The position numbers and the translations under genes are program-made. Positions 18,734 to 47,553 of a DNA stretch of 50,736 bases are shown here, one piece after another. The notes under the pieces are model-generated. The model was not told where the DNA came from, made no database searches, and worked only from the letters and a program-made list of their open reading frames with translations. Numbering within the stretch: position 1 is the first letter of the stretch; the number at the start of each line of letters is the position of its first letter. The stretch comes from an uncultured Bacteroidales bacterium (GTDB lineage: Bacteria; Bacteroidota; Bacteroidia; Bacteroidales; UBA932), in contig CALUSM010000019.1 in NCBI GenBank assembly GCA_944323445.1, positions 1-50,736 of the forward strand. Reading direction: 5' to 3'.

Positions 18734-20199
18734 TGAAACAACCTGGACTACTAATATCCTTCATCCCGGTCATCCTGCTGATGACTCTGATTGTTATCGG
18801 AGTGACCGTCTTCGGGGCCGACATCACCGGAGGCGCCTCTCAGGTGGCTCTGCTGCTGGCCGCGCTGACGGTCATCGGGATTTCTTTATTCCATCTCAAG
18901 ATGCCCTGGTCCCGGCTGGAGGAGGGCATCATCGACAACCTCGGCAAGACCGGACCGGCCATCTTCATCCTCCTGATGATAGGGGCCCTGACCTCCACCT
19001 GGATGCTGTCGGGAGTGGTTCCGACCCTGATTTACTACGGCATGAAGCTCATCAGCCCGAAGATATTCCTATTAGTGGTATTCCTGCTCACAGCCATAGT
19101 CTCGGTGCTCTCGGGCAGCTCGTGGACCACCATCGGCACCATAGGCGTGGCGATGATGAGCGCGGGCACTATGCTGGGCATCTCCGAGGGCTGGCTGGCC
19201 GGAGCCATCATCTCCGGAGCCTACTTCGGGGACAAGCGCTCGCCCATGTCCGACACCACCAACCTCGCCTCATCCGTAGCGGGAGTAGATATCTACAGGA
19301 ACATCAACTATCTGCTGTACACCAACATGCCGTCATTCGTCATCTCCGGCATAGTGTTCACCGTCGTAGGCTTCACATACAACCCGGCCTCCGAGCTGGA
19401 TCTCAGCGCCCAGTATGCCAGCCTCTCGTCGGCGTTCGTCATCAGTCCCTGGCTGCTGCTCATCCCCTGCCTGACCATTTTCATGATATACAAGAAGATT
19501 CCCCCGTTCATCACCCTCTTTGTGTCCGCCCTGCTCTCCGGCATCATAGCCTTCTTCGTGCAGCCGGACCTCATAGCGCAGATATGCGGAGAAGGAAGGG
19601 GATTCCGGGAATTCTTCTACTTCCTATACCAGTCCCTGGCCGCAGAAGTGACCGTATCCACAGGCGACCCGATGCTGGATACCCTGGCCTGCACCTCCGG
19701 CATGTCCGGCATGCTCGGCACGATATGGCTGATACTCTGCGTAATAGTCTTCGGAGGCGTGATGGAGGCATCCGGCATGATAGAGGCCGTCACTGCCAGC
19801 ATCATCTCCCGCCTGAAGAATGCCGTGCAGCTCGTCTCGGCCACAGTCGCCTCCGGTATCTTCTGCAACATCGTACTCTCCGACCAGTACATGTCCATCA
19901 TCGTTCCGGGAAAAATGTTCGCAGAGGCCTACCGCAAGCGCGGCTACGCTCCCGAACTGCTCAGCCGCAGCCTCGAGGACTCGGCCACAGTGACCTCGGT
20001 ACTGGTACCCTGGAATACCTGCGGAGTGGTGCAGTCCACCGTCCTTGGCGTGGCTACCCTCTCCTACCTCCCCTACTGCATCTTCAACCTGCTCTCGCCC
20101 CTGATGTCCATCTTCGTGGCGGCCATCGGCTGGAAGATCCGCAGACTTCACGACAACAATCAATCAAACATTAATATTAAAGACAATGAAAATCAGTGA
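18733..20199 (+). CDS. nhaC: NhaC-family Na+/H+ antiporter
   Basis: The 488-residue protein is highly hydrophobic with about 11-12 membrane segments. The NhaC blocks are clear: LSGSSWTTIGTIGVAMM and SGAYFGDKRSPMSDTTNLAS, with conserved polar and acidic residues for ion exchange. A second half ends VLVPWNTCGVVQSTVLGV. It exchanges Na+ for H+ across the inner membrane. The ATG at 18733 overlaps the pmbA stop. Its last 14 bp overlap the FKBP gene, so all four plus-strand genes from tldD are probably co-transcribed. Confidence 0.9.
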   Translation: MKQPGLLISFIPVILLMTLIVIGVTVFGADITGGASQVALLLAALTVIGISLFHLKMPWSRLEEGIIDNLGKTGPAIFILLMIGALTSTWMLSGVVPTLIYYGMKLISPKIFLLVVFLLTAIVSVLSGSSWTTIGTIGVAMMSAGTMLGISEGWLAGAIISGAYFGDKRSPMSDTTNLASSVAGVDIYRNINYLLYTNMPSFVISGIVFTVVGFTYNPASELDLSAQYASLSSAFVISPWLLLIPCLTIFMIYKKIPPFITLFVSALLSGIIAFFVQPDLIAQICGEGRGFREFFYFLYQSLAAEVTVSTGDPMLDTLACTSGMSGMLGTIWLILCVIVFGGVMEASGMIEAVTASIISRLKNAVQLVSATVASGIFCNIVLSDQYMSIIVPGKMFAEAYRKRGYAPELLSRSLEDSATVTSVLVPWNTCGVVQSTVLGVATLSYLPYCIFNLLSPLMSIFVAAIGWKIRRLHDNNQSNINIKDNENQ

Positions 20200-20731
20200 C
20201 AAGAAAGTAGTAGCACTCACCTACACCCTCACCGTGGACGGCCAGGTGGCCGACCAGACCACAGAAGACCGTCCCCTCGACTTCATCTTCGGCATGGGCT
20301 ATCTCCTGCCCAAGTTCGAGGAGAATATCGCCGGCAAGGAGCCCGGTGACAGCTTCGAGTTCACCCTCACTCCCTCTGAAGGCTACGGCGAGCACAATCC
20401 CGAGCTGGTGGTCGAGCTTCCCAAGCACATCTTCGAAGTGGACGGCAAGATCCAGGAAGGTCTCCTCACCGTCGGCAACATGATCCCGATGATGAACCAG
20501 CAGGGCGGTGTCATGCACGGCAAGGTTCACGAGGTCAAGGATGACAGCGTGATGATGAACTTCAACCACCCCATGGCCGGCAAGACCCTCAACTTCACCG
20601 GCAAGATCCTCACCGTCCGCGACGCCACCGAGCAGGAGCTGACCGAAGGCCTGCACGGGGAGTTCAAGCAGAGCTCATGCGGCGGCGGATGCTCCTCCTG
20701 CGGCGGGGACTGCTGCGGAGGCTGCAACTGA
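20186..20731 (+). CDS. SlyD-like FKBP peptidyl-prolyl isomerase with Cys-rich tail
   Basis: The 181-residue FKBP-type isomerase has an inserted IF (chaperone) domain, as in SlyD. KVVALTYTLTVDGQVAD opens the FKBP fold, GYLLPKFEENIAGKEPGD is the flap and SEGYGEHNPELV leads into the insert. The C-terminus is a metal-binding tail with seven cysteines (SSCGGGCSSCGGDCCGGCN), a Cys-for-His variant of the SlyD tail used in nickel handling. It probably folds proteins and buffers a soft metal. The start lies inside the last codons of nhaC. Confidence 0.88.
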   Translation: MKISDKKVVALTYTLTVDGQVADQTTEDRPLDFIFGMGYLLPKFEENIAGKEPGDSFEFTLTPSEGYGEHNPELVVELPKHIFEVDGKIQEGLLTVGNMIPMMNQQGGVMHGKVHEVKDDSVMMNFNHPMAGKTLNFTGKILTVRDATEQELTEGLHGEFKQSSCGGGCSSCGGDCCGGCN

Positions 20732-21032: not shown

Positions 21033-21346
21033 CAGTCTGTAATTGTGCATTTTGAACAATCAGCTGGAAAACAAGCTATTACAAAACTATCCCTACAACA
21101 GACTGAACTGTGCACCGAGGCTCGGATTTCTTTAAAAACGCCTATAAAGCGCTGTAGCAGGGGTTGCCAGCGGTCAGCAGATTTTCTCCAGGACGAGTCT
21201 GTAAGCCGATGATCCGCGCATAACGTTGTCAAACAGCAATATATGCGAAAAACAGGAAAACAGATAAGCGGCGACCTACCCCAGTCTTGCTTTATGTATA
21301 TCTCTGAGAAACATGAACATATACTGTATTTGAGATGAACAGACTG
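21033..21346 (+). repeat. Mosaic intergenic element, copy 1
   Basis: Copies of AGTCTGTAA start at 21034, 21196 and (degenerate) 21283. Inverted ACAGACTG copies start at 21098 and 21339. The 54-bp core at 21151-21204 contains TCTCCAGGACGAGTCTGTA, identical in all three copies. The block GATCCGCGC...TTGTCA following the core matches the last unit of copy 3. It fills the gap between the converging FKBP and fucosidase genes and touches the fucosidase stop. The stretch 20895-21032 holds nothing I recognise. Confidence 0.85.
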
Positions 21347-21350
21347 CATT

Positions 21351-22796
21351 TCACTGCAGTGCGGGATACACGCTGAAACGGGATATGCATGGGACGGCGC
21401 GGCTGCTGTCGACTACGAGACGGACGGCTGTTGCGGTCACCGGACGATCGAAAACAGCGATATGCTTGTGTCCTACGGATGTGCCGGTGTAGACTGTCTG
21501 CCACTGGCCGTCAGGCATCCTGGCCTCCACGCGGAAAGACCGGATGCGCTCACCCTGAGCGATATCTTCCTGGATGACACAGCGGTCCACTGACACTGCT
21601 CCAGACGTAGCGGAAGACTGCCGGTCTCCAGCGGATTGCTGCGGAAATTCCAGCAGGAAGGTTCCGCCACGGCCGGAAGCCGATGCGACAGGCGTCCCGT
21701 ACCTGCGCTGTATCTCCTCACCCCACTCCTCTAACCGGCGGACATCCCCCTCAGGCAGCAGGCCGTCAGGATCCGGAGTCAGCCCGACGATGAGTGTGGC
21801 ATTGCGTCCCACCGACTTCTCGTACATGGACATCAGAGCATCGAGAGAGTAGACCGCGTCCTCGTCTCCCGGCTCCCAGAACCACTCGTGCCGGCCTCCG
21901 GCTCCGCGCAGAGGTGTGTCCGCCATAGCCGGCACCCAGTATTGTCCTTCGGGATCTCCGTGGGCGAGCAGACGGTTGTGTTCGGAGGCCGACTCGTTGT
22001 TGCGGTTGTGGCTGTAGGGATAAGGGAACGTGGACCAGCACGGGTAGCCGACGGTTCCGGTCTCGGAGCCGCCCCAGCGAAGGTCAGCCCGGTCCACATT
22101 GTGATAGAAGAGGCAGTCGGGCTGAAGGCTGTCGACTATAGGCTCCACATCCGGCCCCATGCCCCTCGGGTCGTCGGCCCCGCCGTCAAACCAGATCATG
22201 AAGAGGTCTCCGTACCGGGAACACAGTTCCTCCACCATCCGTTCGCAGTACCTCCGGTACCACTCCTGCCGGTTGCGGGCAAAGTCTCCGTCTCCCTCGG
22301 CCGCGAAATTGTGTATCCCTAAAAGCGAGTTCCACCGGATACCGACATATAGTCCCGGCTGCAGTCCGTACTTACGGCACGAGGCCACGAAGTCCGCCAC
22401 GATGTCCCCCTTGCCGTCCCTCCAGCGTACCGCCTTCAGGCAGTAAGGGTTCACATCGCTCTGCCACAGACCGAAACCGGTCTCGTGAGTGGCCGTAAGT
22501 ATGGCGAAACGGGCTCCGGCAGCCTTGGCCGCGCGTATCCACTGGTCGGTGTCGAGATGCTCCGGAGCGAAGATGTTGTAGTCCTCGACCGGAGTAATAC
22601 GGTTGCTTCCCTGACCATAGGCCTGACCGTCGAACACATGCAGGTCATAATGGAACACCACGCCTAATTCGGCCTCGTGCCACTTGAGCTGTCTCTCCGC
22701 CGGAACCAGGATGCAGGCAGTATCTTTCACGCTGGCTGAAGACAACAAACATACTGTCAGCAATAATGCGATGCAGAACCATTTCCGTATATTCAT
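21351..22796 (-). CDS. Secreted alpha-L-fucosidase, GH29
   Basis: The 481-residue product starts with a signal peptide (IRKWFCIALLLTVCLLSSAS). The GH29 catalytic domain includes LKWHEAELGVVFHYDLHVF at its start, ARFAILTATHETGFGLW (general fold signature) and the nucleophile aspartate in DLFMIWFDGGADD. A C-terminal beta region resembling a carbohydrate-binding domain ends the protein. It should remove terminal fucose from host or plant glycans in the periplasm or at the surface. I chose ATG 22796, which gives a clean signal peptide. It follows the flavoprotein gene by 59 bp on the same strand. Confidence 0.85.
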   Translation of the reverse strand: MNIRKWFCIALLLTVCLLSSASVKDTACILVPAERQLKWHEAELGVVFHYDLHVFDGQAYGQGSNRITPVEDYNIFAPEHLDTDQWIRAAKAAGARFAILTATHETGFGLWQSDVNPYCLKAVRWRDGKGDIVADFVASCRKYGLQPGLYVGIRWNSLLGIHNFAAEGDGDFARNRQEWYRRYCERMVEELCSRYGDLFMIWFDGGADDPRGMGPDVEPIVDSLQPDCLFYHNVDRADLRWGGSETGTVGYPCWSTFPYPYSHNRNNESASEHNRLLAHGDPEGQYWVPAMADTPLRGAGGRHEWFWEPGDEDAVYSLDALMSMYEKSVGRNATLIVGLTPDPDGLLPEGDVRRLEEWGEEIQRRYGTPVASASGRGGTFLLEFPQQSAGDRQSSATSGAVSVDRCVIQEDIAQGERIRSFRVEARMPDGQWQTVYTGTSVGHKHIAVFDRPVTATAVRLVVDSSRAVPCISRFSVYPALQ

Positions 22797-22855
22797 GAGT
22801 TCTGTAAATTTATTTCCCATAAGAAATGAATTTGCTTAAAACCAATATTCGTGAA

Positions 22856-25518: not shown

Positions 25519-27063
25519 ATGAAATATCCTATAGGCGTACAGAATTTCGAGAAGATCCGTCGGGACGGATTTCTATACATAGACAAGACAGAGCTCATTT
25601 ACAAACTTGTGAATGAGAGCTGTTATTATTTTCTGAGCCGCCCGAGAAGATTCGGAAAGAGCCTCCTTATCTCCACCCTTGAAGCGTATTTTCAAGGGAA
25701 GAAAGAACTCTTCAAGGGGCTGGCGATAGATACCCTCGAGAAGGAGTGGACGGCAAGGCCGGTGCTGCACATAGACCTGAACGCCAGACAGTACGAGAAT
25801 GCCGACTCGCTGCGGCAGGAGCTCAACAAGCATCTGGAACTATGGGAGACGGCCTACAACAGCCCTTACGGAGACAGGGCATTGGAAGAAAGATTCTACC
25901 ACGTGATACGGCTGGCGCACGAGCAGACCGGACACCGCGTAGCCATCCTCGTGGACGAGTACGACAAGCCGTTGCTCCAGGCCATCGGCAACAAGCCCCT
26001 GCAGGAGGAATACCGCAACATACTAAAGCCCTTCTACGGAGTGCTCAAGACCATGGACGGGCATATCAGGTTCGCGATGCTGACCGGAGTCACAAAATTC
26101 GGCAAAGTCAGCGTCTTCAGCGACCTCAACAACTTGAAAGACATCTCCATGCTCCCGCAGTACGCCAGTCTGTGCGGCCTGACGGAAAGTGAGATTCACC
26201 GGTATATGGAAGAGGGCATACAGAATCTGGCTGCAACACAGCATCTCACATACGACGGGACATGCCGGAAGCTGAAAGTGCTGTACGACGGCTATCACTT
26301 CTCGCCCGGTTCCGAAGGCATCTACAATCCGTTCAGCATCCTCAGAACCATGGACAGCGGCATCTTCGGAAGCTACTGGTTCGAGACAGGCACTCCCACT
26401 TATCTCGTAACTCTCCTCAAGCAGGGCAAGTGCGACCTGAGCGAAATTTCCTCGGCGGTCACCGATGTAGAGACTCTTGACAGCATCTATGGGGACGACG
26501 AGCCCATCCCGGTCATCTATCAGAGCGGGTACCTTACCATAAAGGGATACAACCCGCGTTTTGAGTCATACACACTTGGATTCCCGAACAAGGAAGTCGA
26601 GGAAGGTTTCATGAAATTTCTCGTCCCCTACTACACACCCATCCGGAAATCCGCCACCAACTTCGAAATACAGAAGTTTGTCCGGGAGATAGAGACCGGG
26701 AACGTGGACGCATTCATGACACGCCTCCAGAGCTTCATGGCCGACACGCCTTACGAACTTATAAGAGACCAGGAACTCCATTACCAGAACGTCATGTTCA
26801 TCGTATCCAAGCTCCTCGGCTTCTACGTGCAGGCAGAGTACCGCACCTCACAGGGGCGCATCGATCTCCTGCTCCAGACCGACAAGTACGTCTACATCAT
26901 GGAGTTCAAGTTAGAGGGCTCAGCCGAGGAAGCTTTGAAGCAGATCGAGGATCGCAACTACGCCGCCCCCTTCGCCTCCGACTCCCGCAAAGTCCTGAAG
27001 GTAGGCATCAACTTCTCAGCCCAGAGCAGAAATATTGACAAATGGATTGTCGCCGGCAATTGA
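25519..27063 (+). CDS. AAA-ATPase-like / PD-(D/E)XK nuclease family protein, copy 2
   Basis: The 514-residue paralogue of the gene at 5780 has the same architecture: RPRRFGKSLL near 41-50, ILVDEYDKP near 144, and GRIDLLL...YIMEFKL at the nuclease core. The C-terminal third is nearly identical to copy 1 in protein and close at the DNA level, pointing to recent duplication or conversion, while the middle (residues about 85-130) differs. The start is fixed by the shared KYPIGVQNF opening. Its TGA is directly adjacent to the stop of the convergent SGNH gene, with no bases between. Confidence 0.88.
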   Translation: MKYPIGVQNFEKIRRDGFLYIDKTELIYKLVNESCYYFLSRPRRFGKSLLISTLEAYFQGKKELFKGLAIDTLEKEWTARPVLHIDLNARQYENADSLRQELNKHLELWETAYNSPYGDRALEERFYHVIRLAHEQTGHRVAILVDEYDKPLLQAIGNKPLQEEYRNILKPFYGVLKTMDGHIRFAMLTGVTKFGKVSVFSDLNNLKDISMLPQYASLCGLTESEIHRYMEEGIQNLAATQHLTYDGTCRKLKVLYDGYHFSPGSEGIYNPFSILRTMDSGIFGSYWFETGTPTYLVTLLKQGKCDLSEISSAVTDVETLDSIYGDDEPIPVIYQSGYLTIKGYNPRFESYTLGFPNKEVEEGFMKFLVPYYTPIRKSATNFEIQKFVREIETGNVDAFMTRLQSFMADTPYELIRDQELHYQNVMFIVSKLLGFYVQAEYRTSQGRIDLLLQTDKYVYIMEFKLEGSAEEALKQIEDRNYAAPFASDSRKVLKVGINFSAQSRNIDKWIVAGN

Positions 27064-30632: not shown

Positions 30633-32231
30633 TTACTTCAGAAGAAGGCTCTTCCATTCTCCTACGGTGCCGGTCTCCGAGGAGAAGCTGACACCGATGC
30701 AGTGTACCGTGCGGCTGTCGGCTGCGTAAGGGCGGGCGTAGCCTTTCGCCTCTATCTGGGCGAGGGCCTCGTCTGCTGTACCGTCCAGCTTGAACTCGAA
30801 GATGTAGACGTATTTCGGGGTCTCTACGATGCAGTCCACGCGGCCCTGACTCTGAAGCTTCTCCACGCATGTGAGGTAAACACTGACCATTCTCAGAATC
30901 AGATAGAACGTGTACTGGAAATAACGCTCCCTCTCCCGTTCGTCCTCCCTGCGGCGAACTGTGTAAGGTATGTCTGCCAGGAAAGAGGTGAACAGGTCGC
31001 GGATACGGTCTGTCTCTCCGTCCTCGAATGCGTCCAGAAGATCCTGGATCCAACTGCTGACATCGTTGCTCCTGTTTTTGAAATAATCTGAGGCGATAAG
31101 GCTCACGAAACCCTTCTTCACCTCATTGTTCGGAATGTCCAGCAGGAATGTATTGCGGCTCTGCCTGTAATCCTTGATGGTCAGATAGCCGCTCTGATAA
31201 ATCATCGGCAGGGGCTTCTCGACATCGGCCTTGTAGTCGACGAACTGGGAGGGGTCGTAGTACTTGCCGGTAAGCTCGTCCAGGTTCTCGTCCGAGTGAG
31301 ACAGCAGACGGATCAGATAGGTCGGCGTGCCGCTGGCGAACCAGTAGTCACGTACTGCCTTCTGGGCGAAGGCATTCAGAAGGCTGAACGGATTGTAGAC
31401 GTCGGTCATCCGTTCGGAAAAATGATAGCCGTCGTAGTGACGCTTCAGCCTTGAAAGCATCTCCTCGCGGCTCTCTCCGTATGAAGCGGCCATCACATCT
31501 ATCGGCTCTACGAAATAACTCTCCAGCTCCTCTTGAGTAATGCCGCACAGGGTCTCGTAATCCGAAGACATGCTGATGTCCTGAGGCTGGTTGAATCCGC
31601 TGAACACGCTTACCTGCGCAAATTTGGTCACACCCGTGAGCAGCACGAACTGAAGGTCCTCATCCGCCGCCTTGAATACAGAATAGAAGCCCTTGAGTAC
31701 CTCGCGGTTCCACTCCTCCAGCGGACGCTGCTTCCCGTCCACGGTTATGGTATAGCCGGTATCCAGCACGTCCAGCATCGGCTTGTCGTACTCGTCGATG
31801 AGCACCACGCACCTGCGGCCTGTCTGCTCGTGAGCTTTTTTCAGCACGTATGCGAACCGTCTGCCGGCATCGGTGAACTCTTCGCTGCGGCCGTACTGAG
31901 ACTCCCACTGCGATACACTTCCCTCTATTACCGCATCCAGGGTTCCCGGCGCAGTGAAATTGCTGCCGTTGAAGTCGATATGGAACACCGGGTACTCCAG
32001 CCACTCCTTCTCCAGCGAACTGATGGCCAGTCCCTCGAAGAGTCCCTTGCGCCCCAGAAAATAGTTCTTCAGGGTGGATACCAGCAGGCTCTTGCCGAAC
32101 CGTCGCGGGCGGCTCAGAAAATAGATTTTCCCTTCATGCGTAAGCCTGTATACAAGGTCGGTCTTGTCCACATAGGCATAACCGTCCTCGCGGATCTGTT
32201 CGAAGCTCTGAACTCCTATCGGGTATTTCAT
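30633..32231 (-). CDS. AAA-ATPase-like / PD-(D/E)XK nuclease family protein, copy 3
   Basis: The 532-residue relative of the two other copies is clearly more diverged: KYPIGVQSFEQIREDGYAYVD at the start, SRPRRFGKSLLVST as Walker A, VVLIDEYDKPML as Walker B and GRVDCIVE...YIFEFKL as the nuclease core. A second ATG lies one codon upstream (32234). It has a textbook promoter and ends 27 bp from the convergent TetR-type stop. Function unknown. Confidence 0.88.
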   Translation of the reverse strand: MKYPIGVQSFEQIREDGYAYVDKTDLVYRLTHEGKIYFLSRPRRFGKSLLVSTLKNYFLGRKGLFEGLAISSLEKEWLEYPVFHIDFNGSNFTAPGTLDAVIEGSVSQWESQYGRSEEFTDAGRRFAYVLKKAHEQTGRRCVVLIDEYDKPMLDVLDTGYTITVDGKQRPLEEWNREVLKGFYSVFKAADEDLQFVLLTGVTKFAQVSVFSGFNQPQDISMSSDYETLCGITQEELESYFVEPIDVMAASYGESREEMLSRLKRHYDGYHFSERMTDVYNPFSLLNAFAQKAVRDYWFASGTPTYLIRLLSHSDENLDELTGKYYDPSQFVDYKADVEKPLPMIYQSGYLTIKDYRQSRNTFLLDIPNNEVKKGFVSLIASDYFKNRSNDVSSWIQDLLDAFEDGETDRIRDLFTSFLADIPYTVRRREDERERERYFQYTFYLILRMVSVYLTCVEKLQSQGRVDCIVETPKYVYIFEFKLDGTADEALAQIEAKGYARPYAADSRTVHCIGVSFSSETGTVGEWKSLLLK

Positions 32232-32263
32232 CATAGCGCAGTCCTACATTTTCATTTCAGAAA

Positions 32264-32295: not shown

Positions 32296-32493
32296 TTGAA
32301 CTTGTTCAAATTTCATTGCCGAGGCGTAACAGCATTTGCGGCCATGGGCCAAAAATAGGAATAGGAATAATTACGTGATTATCCGCAAATATCCTCCTAC
32401 ATCATCTGCTTTTCTGGCACCCAGGCTGTTTCACCGCATTGACAGGAGCCCTTTTCCCGGTCTTACCTTTCCCCTGCCACACCGCGCCGCCAA

Positions 32494-32753
32494 CAGTCTG
32501 TAATCAATCATTTCGGGCATACCGTTGAATAACATATGATTATAGAGATATGCAGGAAACAGACTGAACAGCTCATCGGAGCACGTACAGCTTATCAATG
32601 CGCCTGGAGAGTGCTGTGGCAGGGGTGGCCCGCGGTCAGCACCTTTTCTCCAGGACGAGTCTGTAGACTGATGATCCGGACAAAGTACTGTAAAACAGCT
32701 CCGTTTGCCAAAAACAGGATTACAGACTATGAGATGACTGCCCGCAGTCTGTA
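32494..32753 (+). repeat. Mosaic intergenic element, copy 2
   Basis: AGTCTGTA copies start at 32495, 32658 and 32746, with inverted ACAGACT copies at 32559 and 32720. Spacings (64, 163, 88) match the other two copies. The 54-bp core is 32613-32666. A perfect 8-bp inverted repeat TACAGACT/AGTCTGTA lies at 32720-32753. It is in the 802-bp gap between AAA/nuclease 3 and the first GLPGLI gene. The rest of that gap is AT-rich with no other feature apart from the two promoters. Confidence 0.85.
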
Positions 32754-33003
32754 TGCCGCGCACCATGCGTAAACTTATCAGCTCCTCACAGGACAAGCAT
32801 TTTATCTTAAATTTACGATAAAATACGTACAATATAGCCAACGAATTAATAAATACAGAGAAGACAACACAACACATTATTGATTATCAACACAAATTTA
32901 CCCACACATATATTACTGATTTTAAACATTTTAAGAATTCCAGCCCAAAAAAACAATTCGAATCCATATTCAAAAAAATCGCACAATAATAAATAAATAA
33001 ACG

Positions 33004-33036: not shown

Positions 33037-34035
33037 ATGACAACACAACGTCCCATATTATTTACAGCCTTCCTTTTGCTAACTGCCCTCGCATCCCTGC
33101 CCGCCCGCGGCCAGTCCGTATCACTCTACGGCGAGACTCTGAAAACTTCATGTCCGTTGAACTGCCGCGATGTCACCAGCAAGAAACCCATAGGCACCTA
33201 CAGCTACACCGTCACCTACCGGTACGAAGTGGACATGAACGCCTATGACACGGCCGGCAACTATATCCCCGACTACGACATCATGCGCCTGGAGATCAGT
33301 CCCGACGGACTTTCCCGATACTACAGCACCACCGCTGACAGACGGGACTCCATCATGTACAGGGCGAGGACCGATGCCAACCACCGCGGCGGAGTGGACC
33401 TCGACAGCTGGAAGCCGGCGGAAAGATTCGCATTGTACGAGGACACTTACCTCAACTGGCCGGAGGCAGGGGAGCTGACAGTCCGCACAGGCATGGTCAG
33501 GGAAGAATTCGAATACACTGAACCCGTTCCACAGATGACGTGGCAATTTCTGAACATCCCGCCCAGGACCGTCTGCGGCTATCAGTGCATGGCAGCCGGC
33601 ACCACGTTCAGAGGACGGCAGTACACCGTGTGGTTCGCTCCCGAAATACCCATCAGCGCAGGTCCATGGAAATTCTCCGGCCTGCCCGGTCTCATCCTGG
33701 CCGTGGAGGAAAGCTCCGGTATATTCTCCTGGGAAGCCGTCGGCATCAGCTCCGATACCGGGGACATCCACCTGTTCGACCCGAAATACGACTGCATCAC
33801 CAACCACGTCTCCTGCGGAGTACCGCTCATGAAGATACGCCGCATCACCCGCAAGCAGGCCCTTGACCTGGAGCGTCGCAGGTGGGCTGACCCCTTTGGC
33901 ATGATCATCTCCAGCGGAGGTTCAGTACAGATGACAGTCATGCAAAATGGAGAGATAATCTCTGACGAGATGGTTACTGCCGCCAACCGCGAGAAATACG
34001 CCCTTCCTGAAATCCCCGTCCTCGAGCTCGAATGA
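33037..34035 (+). CDS. GLPGLI family secreted protein 1 (module A)
   Basis: The 332-residue product has a Sec signal peptide ending near residue 29 (ASLPARGQS). A beta-rich domain follows, with the family hallmark GPWKFSGLPGLI at about 209-220, preceded by GYQCM and FRGRQYTVWFAPEIPIS. These are the diagnostic blocks of TIGR01200. The family is Bacteroidetes-specific and, to my knowledge, of unproven function. It is first in module A, followed 34 bp later by a close paralogue and then an outer-membrane barrel protein. Confidence 0.92.
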   Translation: MTTQRPILFTAFLLLTALASLPARGQSVSLYGETLKTSCPLNCRDVTSKKPIGTYSYTVTYRYEVDMNAYDTAGNYIPDYDIMRLEISPDGLSRYYSTTADRRDSIMYRARTDANHRGGVDLDSWKPAERFALYEDTYLNWPEAGELTVRTGMVREEFEYTEPVPQMTWQFLNIPPRTVCGYQCMAAGTTFRGRQYTVWFAPEIPISAGPWKFSGLPGLILAVEESSGIFSWEAVGISSDTGDIHLFDPKYDCITNHVSCGVPLMKIRRITRKQALDLERRRWADPFGMIISSGGSVQMTVMQNGEIISDEMVTAANREKYALPEIPVLELE

Positions 34036-37822: not shown

Positions 37823-38416
37823 ATGAAATACAGAATCAGAATCCCGCTCACCGCCCTGGCCATTGCCATGCTGACAATGAACGCAGCCGCACAGTCAAAA
37901 CAAGAGACCGAAAAAGTAACACCGCTGGACAGCACGGTTATCACGCTTGCCGAGATATGGAGCCTGGACCAGGGAGTCCGCAGCGATGTCTCCCTCTATC
38001 TGGAAAACAGTCGCGAGTTCAACCTCCGCATCGACAGCATCTGCTTCGACAAAGCCATTGAATGCATAAGGCACTTCGGATGGGTGACGGACTTGGGCAA
38101 ATACAACTCCACCCACGGATACCTCCTGCAGGCACTCACAGCCGTCATGCTCCACAGCCCCCACAGACTGATGGACGGAGATGTCTACAGCCTCCTGCGC
38201 ACAGAAGCCGAGGCAGGACGGCTGCACCCCGAGGCACTGGCTCTCTTTCTGGACAAATACTACGTCATATACCAGAAACGCTCCCTCTATGGCTCCGACT
38301 TCCGCAAATTCCTCCAGCCGCCTGCCCTCAATCCGGAAGACAGACCGCTGTCGGACAGCCTCCGCCGCGACATCGGCCTCAGCCCCCTGCCCGACTCTCT
38401 GTTCCGCCAACCGTAA
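37823..38416 (+). CDS. Secreted DUF6624-like protein
   Basis: The 197-residue product has a signal peptide ending near AAAQS. The mature part, with WSLDQGVRSDVSLYL, FGWVTDLGKYNSTHGYLLQAL and LFLDKYYVIYQKRSLYGSDF, resembles the DUF6624 pattern (DQ.R, HFGWP, LALLEDR...YGSQ). Function is unknown. It is 25 bp after the barrel gene and closes module A. Beyond it lies a 725-bp gap filled mostly by the mosaic element. Confidence 0.6.
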   Translation: MKYRIRIPLTALAIAMLTMNAAAQSKQETEKVTPLDSTVITLAEIWSLDQGVRSDVSLYLENSREFNLRIDSICFDKAIECIRHFGWVTDLGKYNSTHGYLLQALTAVMLHSPHRLMDGDVYSLLRTEAEAGRLHPEALALFLDKYYVIYQKRSLYGSDFRKFLQPPALNPEDRPLSDSLRRDIGLSPLPDSLFRQP

Positions 38417-38463: not shown

Positions 38464-38963
38464 CAGTCTGTACAGCTAAAATCCGTATACTCTCGTGTTT
38501 CACAGAAAGTCACATGAAGTATGCGATTTACAGACTGGGGACAGTCACCACTTGTCTGTTGTCCTGCTTTTCGCATACATTGCTGTCTGACAACACTACG
38601 CGCGGATCATTCGATTACAGACTGAAGGCTGTCGACACCTGTCTGTTATCCTGATTTTTCACCCACCTCGCTGTGTAACAATGCTTTACACAAATGTTCC
38701 GATTACAGACTCGTCCTGGAGAAAAGGCGCTGATAACGGACTACCCCTGCCACAGCACTATACCGGCACATTTAAGGAATATGCGTCCTGGCCGCACCGC
38801 TCAGTCTGTAACGTTCTCTTTTTTCACACTTCTTTATAGCATAGCGACTTACGCAAAGTACATCATTTACAGACTGCAGGCAGTTGCCGCGTGTCTGTAA
38901 TCCGCATAACCCTGTAACCATTTGTTTTCCAGCCGAATATTTCAAACGACCAACTACAGACTG
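38464..38963 (-). repeat. Mosaic intergenic element, copy 3 (expanded, reversed)
   Basis: Read on the minus strand, AGTCTGTAA copies start at 38875, 38711 (core), 38623 and 38536, with inverted copies at 38809 and 38472 and a degenerate outer copy at 38962. Steps are 66, 98, 88, 87 and 64. The 54-bp core is 38703-38756. Relative to copy 1 there is one extra ~88-bp unit between core and last unit. A perfect TTACAGAC/GTCTGTAA hairpin lies at 38867-38900. The remaining 180 bp to the next gene are AT-rich promoter sequence. Confidence 0.87.
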
Positions 38964-39141: not shown

Positions 39142-40023
39142 ATGATGAAAACCTCTACACCCCTCGCGATACTGCTGCCGCTGATTCTGCTTTCCACGGC
39201 CGCATTTTCTTTGGGCGCCCAGACACCCTACATGGACGCCATGTACATCGATGTCCGCTGGGACAGGACCGATACTCTCGGTGAAGCCACGATGCGCCTG
39301 GAATACCGGATGCGCTTTCCCTCCGAGACCGGTTCGGACAGCTCCCACGTAGACAGAAGGATCGTGGAGATAGGCCCGGGACTGCAGAAAGAGTACAGCC
39401 TGATACTGGAGACTTCCGAGATGGCCGGGCACAATGCCTGGAAACAGACTGACGGCGCTTTCGACTCGCACGACCCTGACAGCCCGGTCAACCCCTTTGA
39501 GCTGTACATCACCCCGGACGGCATCACCGTCATCCACAAGACCATGATACTCGGTCCGGTACTCCGCTGGCAGGAGGACACACCCGCATTCGGATGGCAG
39601 CTAACCTCCGATACCTGCACCGTCATGGACTACCCGTGCCAGAAGGCCGTCACCGAATTCCGCGGCCGGGTATGGCACGCCTGGTTCTGTCCCGCCCTGC
39701 CGGTGGACAGCGGCCCTTACAAGTTCCGCGGCCTGCCCGGCCTAATACTCAAGGCAGAGGACACCACCGGCACCTACAGCTGGGAACTCGCTGTCATTGA
39801 GCGGGGTACATGGCCGATTCTCGAAAAACGGCTACTCTACCAGGACTGCACCCGTTCCCAGGCCAGAAAATACATCCGGCAGATGTTCTCCAGCCCCTAC
39901 CAGTGGAAGGTGAGCCGCGGCATGCGCGTCCAGCAGATGGACCCCCAGACCCATCAGCTCAGAGAACTCACCCATGAGGAGAAAAGCGAGTCGTTCCACT
40001 ACGACCCGATAGAACTGGAATAA
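39142..40023 (+). CDS. GLPGLI family secreted protein 3 (module B)
   Basis: The 293-residue product has a signal peptide (LLPLILLSTAAFSLGAQ). Family blocks are DYPCQKAVTEFRGRVWHAWFCPALPVD and FRGLPGLI at about 195-202. It ends DPIELE, a tail shared with the next GLPGLI genes. The start may be this ATG or the next one (39145). It is first in module B, with a promoter so close that the mRNA may be leaderless. Confidence 0.9.
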   Translation: MMKTSTPLAILLPLILLSTAAFSLGAQTPYMDAMYIDVRWDRTDTLGEATMRLEYRMRFPSETGSDSSHVDRRIVEIGPGLQKEYSLILETSEMAGHNAWKQTDGAFDSHDPDSPVNPFELYITPDGITVIHKTMILGPVLRWQEDTPAFGWQLTSDTCTVMDYPCQKAVTEFRGRVWHAWFCPALPVDSGPYKFRGLPGLILKAEDTTGTYSWELAVIERGTWPILEKRLLYQDCTRSQARKYIRQMFSSPYQWKVSRGMRVQQMDPQTHQLRELTHEEKSESFHYDPIELE

Positions 40024-46635: not shown

Positions 46636-47553
46636 ATGAAACTGACTCTCGCTCTTACGATTATCCTGCTGACCGCAGGCTGCGCCGGCAATACCCGCAG
46701 CACCGGCAACAGTACGGCTTCCACCCATGAAAGCAACTTCATCCTGACCGATGAGGGCCGGATTCACGTGAAAACACAGGTCGACACTCTCACCCTCACA
46801 CTGATCTTCGACAGCGGAGGCGCAGGGGAAATGACCCTTGAGACCGCCTGTGCGAGACTGTTGAACGCCGTAGCTACCGAAGGACTGCACCGGAAAAACC
46901 GGATAGACTCCGCATCCATCGGCGGGCAGAACACAGGCAACACCTACGCCTGGTGCCTCTCTCCCAATAGCGATCAGGATCTTTTCCCCGGCAGCGACGG
47001 CATAATCTGTCCGCAATACGCCATAGACCGGAGAATCTGGGAAATCAATATGACTAACAGCTACATCCGCATCCATGAGAGGGATACAGTTCCGCCTGGG
47101 GCTGCAATCTTTCCGATGAGAATAGAATCCGGGAGGTATCTTTACACAAGGTTTCCCGTTACGGTTATCAGAGGCCGCGACACATTGAAAACAGACAGGG
47201 AAATCCTCATAGACTACGGCAGCACCAGCGCCCTGTGGTTCGAGCACAGTCCCCTGCACAGCGACCCGGCAGTCATGGGGTTCTTCACCTCCAGTCCGCA
47301 GCCACAGGTGGTTGAAAAGGAATGGTGCGAGGAATATACGCTCATGGCCGACAAAATCATACTGCCTGACGGCATGGGTACCCTCACCTCATCCACCGAC
47401 AGCCTGAAAATCAGCCTGACTGTCCTCAATGAAGAATATTACCATGAAGAAAGCGTTCTAAAATACCCGGCTGCCATTATGGGCATCGGCATCCTACGGC
47501 ACTGGAATGTCATGCTGGACCTCAAGAATAAAAGGCTCATACTTTTCCCGTAA
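46636..47553 (+). CDS. Retropepsin-like aspartyl protease lipoprotein
   Basis: The 305-residue product has a lipobox ending LLTAGCAG. Two aspartyl-protease-like loops are present: LTLIFDSGGAGEMTL (Asp about 59) and ILIDYGSTSALWF (Asp about 193). The C-terminal GIGILRHWNVMLDLKNKRLILF strand pair is typical of clan AA proteases. Both loops deviate from DTG (DSG and DYG), so it may be a weakened or non-catalytic member. It is last in module B and converges with the permease gene, with one base between stops. Confidence 0.65.
   Translation: MKLTLALTIILLTAGCAGNTRSTGNSTASTHESNFILTDEGRIHVKTQVDTLTLTLIFDSGGAGEMTLETACARLLNAVATEGLHRKNRIDSASIGGQNTGNTYAWCLSPNSDQDLFPGSDGIICPQYAIDRRIWEINMTNSYIRIHERDTVPPGAAIFPMRIESGRYLYTRFPVTVIRGRDTLKTDREILIDYGSTSALWFEHSPLHSDPAVMGFFTSSPQPQVVEKEWCEEYTLMADKIILPDGMGTLTSSTDSLKISLTVLNEEYYHEESVLKYPAAIMGIGILRHWNVMLDLKNKRLILFP

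Follow-up and report, generated by a model that had tools for sequence, protein, structure and literature searches.

The question raised by this locus is what kind of element recurs, with fixed spacing of direct and inverted motifs, in three gaps of the window, i.e. the entire analyzed stretch of 50,736 nucleotides (contig C19) from an uncultured Bacteroidales bacterium. The sequence-only reading had proposed either a mosaic of the BIME/REP type or a structured RNA. The copies were found where this reading had placed them, at 21033-21346 (copy 1), 32494-32753 (copy 2) and, on the minus strand, 38464-38963 (copy 3), with one adjustment: the start of copy 2 at 32494 stands, while its end does not, as a truncated third unit extends the copy to approximately position 32778. 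Re-measured start-to-start spacings reproduced the earlier values for copies 1, 2 and 3, namely 64, 64 and 66 from the direct to the inverted motif, 162, 163 and 164 from the first direct motif to a 54-bp core, and 87 (by reading), 88 and 88 from the core to the next direct motif. The number of core bases identical in all three copies, previously given as 22, had to be corrected to 43 of 54. Exact units of the pattern AGTCTGT-N53-61-ACAGACT occur five times in the window and were found once in total over 100 dinucleotide shuffles of it. The intergenic position holds as far as it was tested: mechanical open reading frames (ORFs) of 100-202 amino acids overlap the copies, and none of the six overlapping or abutting ORFs that were searched matched Pfam. 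All three copies sit between Pfam-supported genes or ORFs, and the gaps are convergent, divergent and tandem, as had been described.

The architecture of the repeat family was analyzed in 68 regions (0.50 Mb) with 172 units, orthologous copies included. The building block of the family, unit U, consists of an inverted doublet, AGTCTGTAA ... TTACAGACT, with half-sites of 7-9 bp, and its length from A to T is 71-73 bp in 170 of the 172 units. These units form 86 arrays, 40 of which consist of a single unit. When linkers of up to 130 bp were counted (n=86, again with orthologous copies), 39 were short (S, 16-17 bp), 34 were long (L, 90-93 bp) and 13 were scattered between 38 and 125 bp. Short and long linkers alternate in 27 of the 31 arrays with at least three units; window copy 3, with its S-S run, departs from this order. 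The most frequent full composite, U1-L-U2-S-U3, is approximately 324 bp long, and among 38 near-full-length copies, 30 have a length of 321-327 bp and the rest of 314-356 bp. When 31 of the 38 were aligned (without seven copies, among them the arrays beside the RAYT gene described below and other divergent ones), conservation was 97% in half-site columns and 76% in other columns. A single half-site is not itself palindromic, and the half-site is mostly CTGTAA; an imperfect palindrome of 20-40 nt immediately preceded on its 5' side by a GT[AG]G tetranucleotide is absent. Folding energies of the unit interior, calculated with the ends kept, gave a mean z of -0.33 (n=141 units, 12 of them below -2), and no consistent hairpin was found inside the interior of these 141 units. 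Short central inverted stretches, TGTTGTCAGACAGCA and GTTTCTATGAAAC, were recognized by eye in the U2 and U3 consensus, and the S-linker palindrome reads TTACAGACTG-N14-CAGTCTGTAA. The consensus of an interior-pairing scan was set aside because both unit orientations were mixed in it, which by itself gives a consensus a symmetric look. The sequence ATTATCCGCAAA was ruled out as a component of the element, as it occurs in both orientations and also away from elements.

Copy 1 (21033-21346, plus strand, 314 bp) is a composite of the 324-bp type, U1-L-U2-S-U3. Its unit U1 (21033-21105), CAGTCTGTAA...ACAGACTG, is followed on the plus strand by the long linker (21106-21194), which holds most of the 54-bp core, by U2 (21195-21266), whose right half-site is ACAGATA, and by U3 (21282-21346), whose left half-site is broken. 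Relative to the orthologue in genome G014, approximately 10 bp are missing from U3, and the third motif is reduced to a damaged CAGTCT. The flanking genes, both assigned by Pfam, encode an FKBP_C isomerase (20186-20731, plus strand) and, in convergent orientation, a member of the Alpha_L_fucos family (21351-22820, minus strand). Copy 2 (32494-32778, plus strand, model positions 1-283) has the structure U1-L-U2-S plus the truncated U3, with U1 at 32494-32566 and U2 at 32657-32728 on the same strand, and lies between divergent genes that Pfam assigns to AAA-ATPase_like/PDDEXK_9 (30633-32234, minus strand) and to the Porph_ging family (33037-34035, plus strand). Copy 3 (38464-38963) is a five-unit array that reads U-S-U1-L-U2-S-U-S-U3 on the minus strand and comprises an outer unit (38891-38963), U1 (38802-38876), U2 (38640-38712), an additional U2-like unit (38553-38624) and U3 (38464-38537), all on that strand. 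It is flanked by an ORF without a Pfam family (37823-38416, plus strand) and by a second gene of the Porph_ging family (39142-40023, plus strand, Pfam). A separate motif outside the element, TGATTATCCGCAAA, was noticed at 32376-32389 and recurs in the regions L045, L046, L139, L157, L170 and L173; TTATCCGCAAA was observed 13 times in 0.50 Mb compared with 0.24 expected occurrences. We take TGATTATCCGCAAA to be somewhat similar to a DnaA box.

Copies of the element are not confined to the window, and many further genomic copies were detected. The source genome (G000; 2.29 Mb, 59 contigs, 88.9% complete) contains 36 exact units and none of a reversed-pattern control. Within the genus, units are present in 14 of 19 genomes at 2-36 per genome: next to the 36 of G000, 20 were counted in G014, 17 in G009, 12 each in G003 and G005, 10 in G007, nine in G002, eight each in G010 and G013, six each in G012 and G015, and two each in G006, G017 and G018. 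Zero exact units were found in G001, G004, G008, G011 and G016. The control yielded 0 or 1 match per genome, with 1 in 16 of 118 genomes. In named records the core pattern occurs in seven stretches, two from Candidatus Coprenecus merdigallinarum and five from uncultured Bacteroidales, and we infer that the genus is Candidatus Coprenecus of the Bacteroidales. A search of viral contigs for the core pattern returned no match. Outside the genus, four of 99 relatives showed one to three matches (G027 1, G046 3, G069 1 and G094 1), and the single matches in G027 and G094 equal the control level. The unit-like matches in G046, which belongs to another genus of the same family, are located at C4:66433, C21:202 and C33:178; two of them are alike, and they could represent a related repeat family. 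In G069, again from another genus, the 3.4-kb contig C4 (L174) shows 94-98% identity to a unit-bearing Coprenecus region, and it is probably a mis-binned contig or else a recent transfer.

In contig C5 of the source genome, an ORF (L055:5629-6636) sits between two unit arrays. Its start is likely M48 of the listed ORF, which gives a protein of 336 amino acids that was identified as a RAYT (REP-associated tyrosine transposase), a TnpAREP-type HUH/Y1 enzyme. The match to the Pfam family Y1_Tnp reached 24.1 bits, barely above the gathering score of 23 bits, and the match to the NCBIfam model REP_Tyr_transpos (E 2.6e-8, 33.9 bits) stayed under the 80-bit equivalog cut-off. A profile of 17 RAYT relatives matched the E. 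coli TnpAREP structure 4er8 weakly (E 0.0087), and a single-sequence search of the PDB with the L055 protein returned no match. The AlphaFold2 model (mean pLDDT 78) had 4er8 as its best Foldseek match (E 1.7e-5, rmsd 8.6 over 164 columns, TM 0.34 by query and 0.65 by target), followed by the ISHp608/IS608 and ISDra2 transposases. All 17 aligned members share the residues H52, H54, Y107 and N111. The HUH and Y---NP motifs of the source-genome copy read NHYH and YILRNP, and some members have another residue in place of the motif proline, as in the YILRNS of G003. Because the Y---NP motif is described for this enzyme class (PMC6006769), Y107 is taken as the putative catalytic tyrosine. The model further predicts a helical C-terminal extension (residues approximately 170-296). 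At L055:3480-5629, a stretch that is covered by the homology between G000 and G014, the array and the RAYT gene come after the genes for ribosomal proteins L22 and S3. What we assume to be the usual continuation of the S10 operon is absent directly downstream.

The link between repeats and enzyme was followed through the genus. Among the matches listed, eight loci carry a RAYT that is at least approximately 63% identical to the L055 protein, and G005 has only a 58-amino-acid fragment (72% identity). Doublets of the type GTCTGT...ACAGAC were found within 1 kb upstream of the RAYT start at five of the eight loci (G000, G014, G003, G017 and G010). In G006 and G016 the upstream units read ATCTGT...ACAGAT, with the same 63-bp spacing as GTCTGT units, and the N-terminally truncated copy of G002 has no upstream unit. 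Loci of other Coprenecus RAYT subfamilies (approximately 27-34% identical to the L055 protein), selected among the matches listed, had no unit within 800 bp in any of 35 cases, some of their flanks being shorter than 800 bp; at L235 (contig C8) an element array is 3.3 kb away, and L268 has a lone motif within the gene. The difference between 5/8 and 0/35 loci gives a Fisher p of 5.8e-5 if orthologous loci are treated as independent, which they are not. A PfkB-like gene follows the RAYT gene in G000 (by Pfam), G014 (by synteny), and G006 and G016 (both by eye). Since neighbors are common to the eight loci where they were compared, these loci probably represent one orthologous site, and therefore one ancestral association of array and RAYT that was kept, not five to seven independent events. 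Six unit-bearing genomes (G007, G009, G012, G013, G015 and G018), several of them incomplete, lack a close RAYT among the matches listed; G016 has the RAYT and no exact unit.

The other RAYT genes have repeats of a different kind. At 17 of the 35 loci (L235, L236, L237, L238, L248, L249, L250, L252, L254, L262, L263, L264, L267, L269, L270, L271 and L272), inverted pairs of 6-mers with a different sequence and equal spacing occur at least twice within 600 bp, which indicates that several RAYT subfamilies own repeat arrays. The control value of 12 in 400 random segments was not matched for intergenic sequence, and the contrast is thus indicative only. These tandem inverted arrays are built from CACCTT, GCCGTT, ACATTT, CACCTG, CCTAAC and other 6-mers with a period of approximately 104-127 bp. 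The source genome contains at least seven RAYT-like matches.

Many element copies are orthologous between species, and comparison of their sites revealed differences. At the site of copy 1, full elements are present in G014, G002 and G009, internal deletions in G003 and G012 and a small deletion in G000; in G010 the FKBP gene adjoins the fucosidase gene and the element is absent, and in G005 unrelated sequence lies next to the fucosidase gene. At the site of copy 2, U1-L-U2 is missing in G003, G002 and G015, with a remnant CAGT followed by GAGGG. The copy 3 array has been lost in G002, where CAGT is joined to an intact ACAGACTG; this is the one of three losses with base-level junctions in which the right half-site is intact. 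Several of the deletions that remove units end in or beside half-sites, further ones use short direct repeats, and the deletion ends vary. A difference of approximately 250 bp between L046 and L139 sits between two copies of CAGTCTGTAA. The element is also absent at C8 in G012 and G003, at C1 in G013 and at C7a in G014, G003 and G012. Comparison of 70 flank-joined constructs with the loci analyzed did not reveal a precise empty site of a clean insertion, and no base-precise insertion with duplication was found among the source-genome loci searched in eight relatives, a search aimed at 11 loci, with C53 slightly shortened and C55 and C32 left out. Mobilization of the element is what we infer from the losses and from presence and absence between species. 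The window segment 38971-47549, which carries Porph_ging genes and genes of the outer-membrane type, has no counterpart at the corresponding place of G014 and G018; in both genomes an element is located at a distance of 0.1-0.2 kb from sequence that matches the window at 47550.

Taken together, the arrays are scattered, occur immediately upstream of the RAYT gene and vary in presence between species. The element is most likely an atypical family of the REPIN/BIME kind, restricted in its association to one RAYT subfamily of Candidatus Coprenecus, and the earlier idea of a BIME/REP-like mosaic is borne out by the dispersed inverted doublets, the two linker classes and the RAYT gene beside the same units. 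Because of the enzyme class and the adjacency of gene and array, the RAYT most likely targets single-stranded doublets that have folded by pairing of their half-sites, and cuts beside these. Inverted half-site pairs would fold into hairpins when the region is single-stranded and would be bound by the RAYT; candidates for the recognized hairpin are the unit itself, the S-linker palindrome or the L-linker. Cutting and rejoining beside a half-site, with the conserved CT that precedes GTAA/GTAG as a possible position, would allow units to be excised, multiplied and reshuffled, and ordinary recombination between copies may add further rearrangement. The RAYT gene itself would remain at one locus, like known TnpAREP genes.

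Other explanations account for parts of these observations. An ordinary MITE that has CAGTCTGTAA as terminal inverted repeats and depends on a DDE transposase encoded at another genomic site would explain the precise ends, the near-constant length (321-327 bp in 30 of 38 near-full-length copies) and the dispersal. Such an origin is unlikely, however, as the motif recurs within the element and the unit is thus the doublet, the transposase linked to the repeats belongs to the Y1 HUH class, and no target duplication was recognized when the flanks of the 38 near-full-length copies were inspected by eye. Conservation of the half-site columns, together with copies at the same site in several species, could instead reflect selection on a binding array for a host protein (nucleoid, regulatory or gyrase-type), with a RAYT link that is only historical and may go back to a single ancestral event. 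Copy numbers from 0 to 36 across species of one genus and the free loss of single sites, which would not be expected of an essential binding site, render this quite improbable.

A structured non-coding RNA, either a multi-copy small RNA or a cis element, was the second idea of the sequence-only reading, and it was not supported. The half-sites are able to pair, and changes on both sides occurred in five of 28 RNAalifold pairs, two of them in a long-linker helix (columns 76-82 with 149-155). Neither the window nor the element gave a match in Rfam, though, and the covariation term contributes -0.95 of -14.41 kcal/mol, a signal little above that of shuffles: in a set of 500, 36 scored at least as high in covariation and 43 had at least as many doubly changed pairs. 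The copies also tolerate internal deletions and are found alike in convergent, divergent and tandem gaps. A weak covariation signal may be present, and an RNA as the basis of the element is very unlikely. Least credible are integron- or shufflon-like sites for site-specific recombination that border variable gene cassettes. Synteny does break at several elements, with some compared contigs ending close to the element: window position 32713 continues at 47550 in G014, locus C7b has a conserved right flank and a left flank that differs by species group, and a further break is located at L046/L139. The window nevertheless has breaks without any element at 27048/29868, 30617 and 37707, and deletion ends vary, some lying at short direct repeats.

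The preferred reading of an atypical REPIN/BIME-like family can be set against described systems. Like the REPINs of Pseudomonas fluorescens SBW25 (Bertels and Rainey 2011, PMC3116915), as far as they are characterized there, the Coprenecus units consist of two inverted short repeats, are spread out in ordered tandem clusters, which in the three window copies lie between genes or ORFs, and include a cluster beside the RAYT gene, with one repeat type per RAYT; doublets of 71-73 bp compare with SBW25 peaks at 71 and 110 bp. Unlike the approximately one thousand REP sequences described for SBW25, Coprenecus has tens of units with a different half-site, in which short and long linkers alternate (27/31 arrays of at least three units). 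REPIN excisions are reported in the same source as asymmetric, leaving the right half-site intact; the loss of copy 3 in G002 resembles them, but the other losses do not. With the E. coli BIMEs and their TnpAREP (PMC8266576, as described there), the family shares inverted repeats, variable linkers, tandem mosaics and a repeat-flanked RAYT gene. Cleavage at CT is known from that account for the TnpAREP of E. coli, S. maltophilia and Marinomonas, and the conserved CT before GTAA in Coprenecus fits this. In contrast to the E. coli system as presented there, Coprenecus lacks GTAG plus a hairpin stem, a single half-site being non-palindromic, and its RAYT carries the helical C-terminal extension (approximately 170-296).

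A further relevant group is TnpAREP subclass 2.6 (RAYT group 5) of the Bacteroidetes, for which 'atypical secondary structures' and repeats lacking GT[AG]G are noted (PMC6006769). The Coprenecus RAYT shares with it the phylum and the class-2 signature Y---NP, and in both cases non-GT[AG]G repeats occur close to the gene as well as at other genomic places. The median length given for the subclass, 179 amino acids, differs from the 296-336 amino acids in Coprenecus, and this RAYT may belong to 2.6, to 2.1 or to an unnamed subclass. TIRtrons, in the description of PMC3733652, likewise combine a Y1 transposase gene with adjacent non-GTAG inverted repeats and, in some species, have repeat families elsewhere; unlike their single long TIR pair flanking the gene, Coprenecus has arrays of short doublets mainly upstream. 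The system most likely works like REPIN/BIME-RAYT; it is not a canonical GTAG REP. A more far-reaching interpretation, which we regard as possible but doubtful, is a distinct REPtron class of co-evolving transposase-repeat pairs, in which several Coprenecus RAYT subfamilies operate in parallel, many with their own non-GTAG inverted arrays, the RAYT reads a symmetric doublet instead of a tagged hairpin, and 324-bp U-L-U-S-U composites move as single units. The conserved C-terminal extension of each RAYT subfamily may in that case contact DNA.

For the atypical REPIN/BIME-like family preferred here, a literature search of limited scope found nothing on Coprenecus repeats or on bacterial interspersed mosaic elements in Bacteroidales. 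In the sources cited above, experiments on RAYTs are described only in gamma-Proteobacteria (E. coli, Stenotrophomonas and Marinomonas), and the repeats of Bacteroidetes are merely called atypical. Coprenecus presents several families of transposase and repeats side by side in one genus, together with a natural motif change from GTCTGT to ATCTGT between diverged copies of one RAYT, and therefore the choice of repeats by a domesticated transposase becomes directly testable.
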